Positions 25,699 through 28,102 of a stretch of DNA of 64,000 nt are shown here, in pieces. Source of the DNA: Croceivirga thetidis. GTDB taxonomy: Bacteria; Bacteroidota; Bacteroidia; Flavobacteriales; Flavobacteriaceae. The notes under the pieces were generated by a model. It saw only the letters and a list, made by a program, of their open reading frames with translations. It was not told where the DNA came from and ran no database searches. The stretch's first letter is position 1. Each line of letters begins with the position of its first letter. Both the position numbers and the translations under genes were made by a program. Location: NCBI RefSeq assembly GCF_012272815.1, contig NZ_JAAWWL010000002.1:1146280-1210279 (forward strand). Reading direction: 5' to 3'.

Positions 25699-27270
25699 TT
25701 ACTTGGCCACGTTGACAGCCCTTGTTTCGCGTATAACGGTGACCTTGACTTGACCAGGGTAGGTCATTTCAGTTTGAATCTTCTGAGAGATATTAAAGGA
25801 TAATTCTGCCGCTTGGTCATCATTTACCTTTTCACTTTCTACGATTACACGAAGTTCTCTACCCGCTTGAATGGCATAAGCTTTTTGAACTCCATTGAAT
25901 CCAAATGCAACATCTTCTAAATCTTTTAATCGTTGAATGTATGAATCAAGAACTTGTCGTCTCGCACCGGGTCGTGCCCCACTGATTGCATCACAAACTT
26001 GAACAATCGGTGAAATCATACTGGTCATCTCAATTTCATCATGGTGGGCCCCAATTGCATTGCACACCTCTTTATTTTCACCATATTTTTTCGCCCAATC
26101 CATACCTAAAATAGCATGTGGCTTCTCAACTTCAGTTTCTAAAATTGGAACCTTTCCTATATCGTGTAATAGTCCAGCCCGCTTAGCCAATTTAGGATTT
26201 AAACCAAGCTCAGAGGCCATTACGGAACATAATTTGGCTACTTCTCTTGAGTGTTGCAATAAATTTTGCCCGTAGGAAGAACGGTATTTCATGCGCCCAA
26301 CGGCCTTGATAAGTTCAGGATGAAGGCCATGAATACCTAAGTCAATAACTGTTCTCTTACCAATTTCAACAATTTCTTCATTGATTTGTTTCTCGGTCTT
26401 TTTGACCACCTCTTCGATTCTCGCCGGATGAATTCGACCATCAGTAACCAATCGGTGCAAGGATAGACGGGCAATTTCACGTCGTACGGAATCAAAGCAC
26501 GAAAGTATAATCGCTTCAGGGGTATCATCAACAATGATTTCAACACCTGTAACAGATTCAATCGCCCGGATATTTCTACCTTCCCTGCCTATAATACGAC
26601 CTTTGACATCATCAGACTCAAGATTGAAAACTGAAACGCAGTTATCAATTGCCTCTTCGGTACCTATTCGTTGAATGGTATTAATTACAATCTTTTTTGC
26701 TTCTTGTTGTGCAGTAAGTTTTGCTTCTTCAAGCGTGGATTGCAAATAGGCCATTGCATCGGTCTTCGCCGTTTCTTTTAATGACTCCATCAACTGCGAT
26801 TTGGCATCCTCTGCCGAAAGTCCTGAGATTACTTCAAGTTGTTTAACTTGACTACGGTGTAGCTTATCAACTTCCGCCTGTTTACGTTCAAGGATTTCAG
26901 TTTTATGTTCAAAGTCCTTGATTTTATCCTCTAGGCCTTGATTGAGTTTTTTGTTCTTTGATAATTCGTTGCTTATTTGCGATTCTTTATCACGTGTACG
27001 TTTCTCCGCTTCGGCAATTTTTTTGTCTTTAGTTATAATTACCTTTTCGTGCTCGGCCTTTAATTCCAAAAACTTTTCTTTGGCTTGGAATATTTTGTCC
27101 TTTTTTATGCCTTCACCATCCTTCTTAGCATCTCGAATTATGTTTGAGGCCCTTTTCTCTGCTCTTGCTATTGTTTTTGCCGCTTTGCCCTTTTCAAGAG
27201 CTTTTGCAATTGCAAAACCGATAATTAATCCTACAAGGGCCACTATTATAGTTAGAATAGTAGTATCCAT
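25699..27270 (-). CDS. rny: ribonuclease Y
   Basis: A 523-residue membrane-anchored endoribonuclease that starts mRNA decay. Order: a transmembrane helix at about residues 4-24, a long coiled coil rich in Lys, Glu and Ala (25-205), a KH domain (about 210-275, with [10 protein letters not shown]), an HD domain (about 335-435, with Leu-Leu-His-Asp-Ile-Gly-Lys) and a C-terminal domain. The frame extends to 27360, but that would place the start inside the RNA gene below and add 30 residues before the membrane anchor; ATG 27270 gives the family-standard N-terminus. Lies downstream of zapA and the 6S-like RNA on the same strand. Confidence 0.95.
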
Positions 27271-27288: not shown

Positions 27289-27457
27289 AAAAAAAGCCCA
27301 CATTGGGCGAAGTTTTGTACAAACTCCTAATAACAGGTTTAGGGCTAACAGGCTGCTCAAAAATCCCTATGCGAGTAGGGCACGCTTTTACAACCTAAAC
27401 TCACCCTTTTTAAATGCAATAATGTTGAGTTTGTCAAAAAATAATACCAATGTGGGC
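27289..27457 (-). ncRNA. ssrS: 6S-like RNA (6S-Flavo type) between zapA and rny
   Basis: About 162 nt folding as one long rod. Nested perfect helices: closing stem 27296-27306 with 27447-27457 (11 bp), then 27319-27326 with 27427-27434 (8 bp), 27337-27343 with 27394-27400 (7 bp) and an apical hairpin 27365-27369 with 27376-27380. The large internal loop resembles the open-promoter mimic by which 6S RNA binds RNA polymerase. The 3' end on the minus strand is a local hairpin (27296-27308, GCCCA-CAT-TGGGC) followed by seven U, which sets the strand. The zapA-adjacent position matches the well-known 6S location in proteobacteria. A flavobacterial 6S family is known in Rfam; membership needs a covariance search. 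Confidence 0.75.
27296..27308 (-). terminator. terminator hairpin of the 6S-like RNA
   Basis: A 5-bp GC-rich stem (GCCCA/TGGGC) with a three-base loop, followed on the minus strand by seven U (27295-27289). The hairpin reuses bases that also form the 3' arm of the long closing stem, so the two structures exclude each other. It lies 18 bases before the rny start. Confidence 0.65.
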
Positions 27458-27473
27458 AGTAACAATAATTATT

Positions 27474-27779
27474 TTAAAGAACGTTTTCTGAATCCAAACT
27501 GCCTTTGAGTTTTTCCTCAAGTGCTTTTAAGCGTCTGGTTGCAGATTTTATATTTTCAGCTTCATTTATTCCTCCCTGTTCAATTTTGCTAGCAAATTGT
27601 AGTGCACACATAGCCAGAACATCTTGCTTGTCTCGAACAGCGTAACTTTGCTCAAATTTCTTCGCCAAAACTTCAATGTTTTTAGCTGCTTTTCTCAATC
27701 CTTCTTCTTGTCTTGGGTCGATTGTTAATGGGTAGACCCTATCCGCAATTGAAAGCTTGATTTTGAGCTTTTCGTTCAT
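27474..27779 (-). CDS. zapA: cell division protein ZapA
   Basis: A 101-residue cytoplasmic protein that binds and bundles FtsZ filaments. It shows the ZapA N-terminal strands with Ile-Ala-Asp-Arg-Val-Tyr-Pro-Leu-Thr-Ile and Glu-Glu-Gly-Leu-Arg-Lys-Ala-Ala-Lys, followed by a long amphipathic helix that forms the dimeric coiled coil. Length fits the family. Just upstream (nine bases) is a coiled-coil gene and just downstream the 6S-like RNA, then rny. All read on the minus strand from one promoter near 28103-28133. Confidence 0.9.
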   Translation of the reverse strand: MNEKLKIKLSIADRVYPLTIDPRQEEGLRKAAKNIEVLAKKFEQSYAVRDKQDVLAMCALQFASKIEQGGINEAENIKSATRRLKALEEKLKGSLDSENVL

Positions 27780-27788
27780 CCACTAAAT

Positions 27789-28079
27789 CTATTCGGCCAA
27801 TTGTGCAATACAATGATCAATTTCCCTAATCATTGCATTTATTTTGAGCTTGGCCTCTGTTTTGTTTGTATTACTGCCAAGCATTGAATTCGCCAATTTC
27901 AAGGAGTTAAATTTTTCCTCCCATTCATTAATGGACTGGTCACTTTCTAACTTTTGTTCTTTTAGTGCTTCAACCTCCTTCGAAAGATTCCTATTTAAAA
28001 GTTGTAAGTCTTCTATTTTACCAAGAAGACGATTAACCTTTAGTTCAAGGGAGTCAACAATTTCAACAAGTTCGCCCAT
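27789..28079 (-). CDS. small coiled-coil protein, possible ZapA partner
   Basis: A 96-residue protein that is almost wholly predicted coiled coil: heptads rich in Leu, Val, Glu, Lys and Asn from residue 5 to 60, then a short tail with Lys-Leu-Lys-Ile-Asn-Ala-Met-Ile-Arg-Glu-Ile-Asp-His-Cys-Ile. There is no signal peptide. It is the first gene of the transcript that holds zapA nine bases later. Size, coiled coil and position suggest a ZapB-like linker of the division ring, but this is inference from context. ATG 28079 is preferred over the slightly longer frame. Confidence 0.75.
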   Translation of the reverse strand: MGELVEIVDSLELKVNRLLGKIEDLQLLNRNLSKEVEALKEQKLESDQSINEWEEKFNSLKLANSMLGSNTNKTEAKLKINAMIREIDHCIAQLAE

Positions 28080-28102
28080 TAGCAAATTGCAATGCGTCTA
28101 AA

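Follow-up and report, generated by a model that had tools for sequence, protein, structure and literature searches.

The window, by which we mean the whole 64,000-nucleotide stretch of Croceivirga thetidis DNA that was analysed, carries on its minus strand an RNA element set between zapA and the RNase Y gene rny (Table 1). The original prediction had taken this element for a 6S-like RNA. Searching with the Rfam 6S-Flavo model (RF01685) gave a score of 97.9 bits at the element, compared with a gathering score of 85 (E = 7.2e-16 for the 64-kb window), and the match runs the full length of the model with the consensus helices. This search was the check named along with the prediction, and it confirms the proposed identity. 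The minus-strand element is a flavobacterial 6S RNA, of an ordinary and already known kind, and its membership of the family makes it probable that it also functions as one. The detection of a 6S RNA in Flavobacterium psychrophilum is reported in part of one study (PMC9723704), and passages of another describe a 6S RNA with evidence for pRNAs in Bacteroides thetaiotaomicron (PMC7366714). Just before zapA lies an open reading frame with a weak resemblance to zapB, and the order of zapB-like gene, zapA and 6S RNA in the window is the one reported for the beta- and gamma-proteobacteria.

Table 1. Genes and RNA features of the zapA-rny region, in window coordinates.
Feature	Position	Strand	Remarks
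98-aa ORF just before zapA	27789-28085	-	weak Pfam ZapB match, 8.7e-5, under cut-off
zapA, upstream gene	27474-27779	-	Pfam ZapA, 5.5e-17
6S-Flavo RNA, outer stem to outer stem, 162 nt	27296-27457	-	Rfam match, with flanks added from the conserved closing stem
Closing stem, 5' arm, GCCCACATTGG	27447-27457	-	pairs with 27306-27296
Inner helix, 5' strand, TTTTGACAAACTC	27427-27439	-	pairs with 27326-27313
Core matched by RF01685 (bubble and apical arm)	27321-27430	-	model positions 1-108 of 108
Inner helix, 3' strand, GAGTTTGTACAAAA	27313-27326	-	one bulged A in helix
Local hairpin, GCCCAAUGUGGGC (GCCCA-AUG-UGGGC)	27296-27308	-	-6.2 kcal/mol; competing terminator of the original prediction
Closing stem, 3' arm, CCAATGTGGGC	27296-27306	-	pairs with 5' arm
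U7 tract, directly 3' of the 3' arm	27289-27295	-	at least 4 U there in 90 of 91 genomes
rny (RNase Y), downstream gene	25699-27270	-	NCBIfam TIGR03319, 2e-191; start codon 25 nt past closing stem

RF01685 has a single match in the window's own genome and, among 199 genomes of its bacterial family, matches 194, once in each matched genome, with 182 of the 194 matches exceeding the gathering cut-off. The RNA was found in all 11 genomes searched in the window's genus. A sample of the order gave matches in 59 of 148 genomes (11 above the cut-off), and 21 of these 59 belong to the window's own family. The 12 matched family genomes out of 194 that fall under the 85-bit cut-off mean that annotation relying on this threshold will miss some of these RNAs. 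For the alignment we used 91 of the 194 matched genomes, composed of 30 matches given as loci (among them L031, from the same genus), 60 from the other listed matches and the window itself; this family sample was drawn only among the matches listed.

The gene neighbourhood is nearly constant. zapA lies upstream on the same strand at 110 of 111 loci, the exception having just 93 bases before the match, and the spacing from zapA to the RNA is roughly 3-48 nt across the 110 loci. Downstream, rny is on the same strand at 107 of 111 loci, and the distance from the closing stem to its start is 18-136 nt in the 86 of 91 loci that were measured, being 59 nt or less in 77 of the 86. RNase Y immediately downstream was likewise part of the original prediction and holds in the window. 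A conserved GTTACT precedes the closing stem. We found no sigma-70-like promoter at the 6S locus, and the best upstream matches to the sequence TAnnTTTG agree at 4 of the 6 letters and sit at -10 or -9 in no more than 30 of the 91 loci. The idea that the 5' arm is itself part of a TAnnTTTG promoter, and so lies outside the RNA, was ruled out by its covariation with the 3' arm.

Taken from stem to stem, the 162-nt RNA has a predicted fold of -56.1 kcal/mol. With the U-run it reaches -57.3 kcal/mol, compared with a mean of -37.0 kcal/mol for shuffled sequences (z = -5.43), and none of 200 shuffles was equally stable. The predicted fold has the shape that characterizes the 6S class, a rod with a closing stem, a large central bubble and an apical stem, for which pair counts over 90 distinct sequences cover the closing stem and the inner helix only, the core helices coming by way of the Rfam match. 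Four nested perfect helices around a bubble, as originally described, proved generous: the large bubble is present and the closing stem of the window consists of 11 perfect pairs, but the next helix is split into 8 + 5 pairs by a bulged A, and small internal loops interrupt the apical part. The sequence AACTCAAC, located at the bubble's 5' edge (columns 36-43 of alignment A1), is invariant in 91 of 91 sequences and is a candidate initiation region for pRNA.

The 11-bp closing stem is missing from RF01685, whose consensus has both flanks (the ACUC and GGAGU ends) unpaired. Across the 90 distinct sequences, 99.3% of cells in the closing stem are paired and double changes occur in 7 of the 11 pairs, and the inner helix is 98.4% paired with double changes at 4 of 13 pairs. 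Together the two helices contain 112 double-change cells, compared with a mean of 20.2 in shuffles, and 0 of 500 shuffles reached 112; covariation across the Flavobacteriaceae had been named as a check, and both outer helices show it. Further, 98.8% of their cells are paired in register, as against at most 47.1% when the strands are slid by 1-3 columns. The closing stem is 11-13 bp long in most genomes, and in the window its outermost pair has an equilibrium probability of 0.976. Pairing with the 5' arm brings a gain of 11.0-22.9 kcal/mol and beats the best local fold before the U-run in all 91 genomes. Uridines follow the stem directly, at least four of them in 90 of 91 genomes, at least five in 89 and at least six in 86, giving the GC-containing stem in contact with a U-run that is expected of an intrinsic terminator. 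The outer stem is strongly conserved, covaries and is left out of the public model. That the public flavobacterial 6S model omits both this strongly covarying stem and the U-tract may be a useful point for others.

Stems next to U-runs were also found beyond the family, in the order and in the class. Within the order, 19 loci taken from seven other families all have a stem, which varies in sequence and stands 0-1 nt away from a U-rich run. The same is true of a twentieth order-level locus, from the window's family; for these order-level stems (19 + 1 loci) the best placement was taken, with no control. A covariance model built from the 91-locus alignment, R1, which includes the closing stem, was searched against 295 genomes of the class and matches 36, of which 25 lie outside the window's order. 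Since R1 contains the closing stem, the class-level loci are not independent of it. Both zapA and rny are present at 29 of 30 loci from the R1 search, the window's own included. A match to the Acido-Lenti-1 model at L123 lay below gathering and was set aside. Out of 51 order- and class-level loci entered, several of which are second copies of one genome's locus, 49 were scored, L108 and L134 having no T-run by the rule of the script. The stem lies 0-1 nt from the U-run in 44 of the 49; at L093, L115, L128, L140 and L141 the script settled on a different T-run, for which reason they yielded no closing stem. Own stems had a mean score of 26.9 versus 16.6 with the 5' regions of other loci (49 loci), and at 21 of the 49, the five stemless loci included, the 5' region of some other locus, often a relative, outscored the locus's own.

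We also looked at 40 Bacteroidia genomes without an R1 match (L156-L195), in 39 of which zapA lies directly upstream of rny. Where the gap between the two genes is at least 230 nt, 8 of 9 gaps show a stem with a loop of 129-174 nt, 0-1 nt before a U-run, each of the 8 stems scoring above its 20 shuffles. The other 31 of the 39 gaps yielded no long-range stem ahead of a U-run. Two of the eight (L180 and L181), which lack a CTCA element close to the 5' arm, are less secure as 6S RNAs. The conserved zapA-rny gap points to putative 6S-like RNAs unlisted by the R1 search.

At the 3' end of the window RNA, the original prediction had placed a compact hairpin that would act as terminator and compete with the closing stem. 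The coordinates of the two arms, the U7 tract and the hairpin all hold, and in the window the hairpin and the closing stem do share the bases of the 3' arm and are mutually exclusive. Forcing the hairpin costs about 11.6 kcal/mol (-44.5 vs -56.1 kcal/mol), and the equilibrium probability of its pairs prints as 0.0 to five decimals. A pattern scan for terminators on both strands of 421 bases returned 3 sites where shuffles average 0.2; one is the local hairpin and one its plus-strand reading. As a general mechanism the competition found no support in the comparison with relatives: a hairpin of -5 kcal/mol or better with a loop of 3-8 nt occurs in 1 of 91 genomes, the window's own, and the compact hairpin is absent in 10 of 10 other genomes searched in the window's genus. 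Uninterrupted hairpins with loops of 3-8 nt that end at the U-run and fall below 0 kcal/mol occur in 20 of 91 genomes, the second strongest having -3.6 kcal/mol. When genomes from 84,980 species were scanned for an exact 19-base match, a scan which may leave out records near the window's genome, 9 further stretches with the compact hairpin came up. All 9 lie in records named Muricauda, Allomuricauda or Flagellimonas, and each of them coincides with a 6S 3' end. Some species of this lineage carry the compact hairpin, which is not conserved in the family.

Other local folds before the U-run are variable. Uninterrupted hairpins of -2 kcal/mol or better with loops of up to 16 nt occur in 35 of 91 genomes and are mostly of an 8-bp GU-rich type. 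If interrupted folds within about 40 nt are counted as well, 64 of the 91 reach -2 kcal/mol, 53 reach -4 and 16 reach -6.2, and 6 have no local fold. The 8-bp GUUUAUAC/GUGUAGGC type of local hairpin has 89.3% of its cells paired. Both this pairing and GGAGUUU/AAACUUC were rejected as alternative 3' hairpins, neither showing covariation beyond shuffles. An alternative hairpin conserved or covarying in relatives, the mark of a terminator switch, was not found. Elsewhere in the family, local folds that are weaker or have longer loops may compete to some extent with the closing stem.

The most economical reading of these sequences, to which we give about an even chance, is that the closing stem and the U-tract together would form the 6S RNA's own intrinsic terminator. 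A long-range stem as terminator is the simplest reading because the stem and U-tract are constant and covarying, while the local folds vary, are weaker and, in the types tested, do not covary. If it behaves like the 6S RNAs that have been studied, the RNA would fold as a rod with an open bubble and engage RNA polymerase carrying the primary sigma factor, coming free once the bubble has served the enzyme as template for a short pRNA. Here the ends of the RNA zip into a closing stem that runs straight into the U-tract, and on this reading the closing stem would be the terminator stem and the folded 6S body its "loop". If transcription stops at this point and does so because of the long-range stem, the RNA would fold and form its 3' end in one and the same step, placed beside an RNase gene. 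The compact hairpin may help termination as a lineage-specific overlay in the window species and in some relatives of the Muricauda/Flagellimonas group. Several points speak against the closing stem as terminator. A loop of about 140 nt is unusual for a terminator, local folds of -4 kcal/mol or better are common ahead of the U-run (in 53 of 91 genomes), 5 of 49 order- and class-level loci gave no such stem, another T-run having been taken, and the mature 3' end could arise by processing.

The switch that the original prediction had in mind, in which the compact 13-nt hairpin ends transcription and the closing stem forms afterwards by refolding, has in its favour that the window RNA can adopt either fold but not the two at once, and that the hairpin recurs at the 6S 3' end in 9 genomes of the Muricauda/Flagellimonas group. 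Further, a short hairpin should form faster than a closure over 140 nt. However, its presence in 1 of the 91 family-sample genomes and in 0 of 10 congeners implies that it is not needed for 6S biogenesis in general, and the 9 genomes also share most of the neighbouring bases outside the hairpin and uninvolved in it, as common descent would give. We consider such a switch decidedly unlikely.

It is also conceivable that the closing stem is kept only for polymerase binding or pRNA release, and that the U-tract terminates through some local structure that varies among lineages. The 53 of 91 genomes with a local fold of -4 kcal/mol or better, interruptions allowed within about 40 nt, would fit this reading, as would the closing stem that also belongs to the 6S consensus of lactic acid bacteria according to part of PMC8414754. 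Yet 56 of the 91 genomes are without an uninterrupted hairpin of -2 kcal/mol or better even with loops of up to 16 nt, and the two alternatives tested do not covary, and we regard local termination of this kind as doubtful. A further possibility is that zapA, 6S and rny form one transcript from which the 6S RNA is cut, so that the stem would protect the ends only and would be no terminator. The close spacing, with zapA roughly 3-48 nt upstream and the rny start at 59 nt or less in 77 of 86 loci, leaves little room for separate promoters. The failure to find a sigma-70-like promoter and the poor TAnnTTTG matches, in a fixed place in only 30 of 91 loci, point the same way, as does the processing of E. 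coli 6S RNA from a dicistronic transcript, described in part of PMC7641849. Processing alone would nevertheless leave unexplained why the U-tract adjoins the stem exactly in 90 of 91 genomes and why further families in the order and class retain it, and we judge it unlikely that the RNA is made in this way without a terminator.

If the closing stem is indeed the terminator, a broader proposal can be made, although we think it rather improbable as a whole: the 6S RNA of the Bacteroidia would terminate itself, only correctly folded RNA would stop transcription, and failure of the stem would give read-through into rny, so that folding would set the supply of RNase Y. The arrangement would have been kept since a zapB-zapA-6S order that is also present in the proteobacteria. 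With the rny start codon about 30 nt downstream, there is little room for rny to have a promoter of its own.

Compared with known systems, the window RNA is closest to the 6S-Flavo family described, in the relevant part of the paper, by Weinberg et al. 2010 (PMC2864571). It has the same core helices and bubble with all 108 positions of RF01685 matched, and differs in that the Rfam model ends before the closing stem and U-tract. The Bacteroidales-1 model (RF01693, "6S-Bacteroidales RNA suggested") gives a weak whole-model match to the window of 30.9 bits, under its gathering score of 60. Of 14 RF01693 loci, 12 have neither zapA nor rny in the flanking sequence covered, which reaches no further than about 1.5 kb on either side. 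All 11 untruncated loci examined allow a closing stem to be drawn, with a less clean U-run, in a set that leaves out L155 (truncated) and L152 and L153 (copies of flavobacterial loci). One distant locus, L131, scores 53.7 bits with R1 and 90.3 bits with RF01693 and has no zapA or rny in the available flanks. This double match suggests that the 6S-Flavo and Bacteroidales-1 families of Rfam are one. The 6S RNA of proteobacteria (ssrS) is a rod with a bubble, like the window RNA. Termination of E. coli ssrS is reportedly Rho-dependent, going by the title of a 2011 paper by Chae et al., whereas in the window a U-tract follows the closing stem. In the beta- and gamma-proteobacteria, ssrS is placed directly after zapA with zapB before it, according to the pertinent passages of PMC7641849, and the zapA neighbourhood of the window echoes this location as had been proposed. 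Those passages have FAU1 or EVE genes following ssrS (PMC7641849), whereas the gene that follows in the window is rny.
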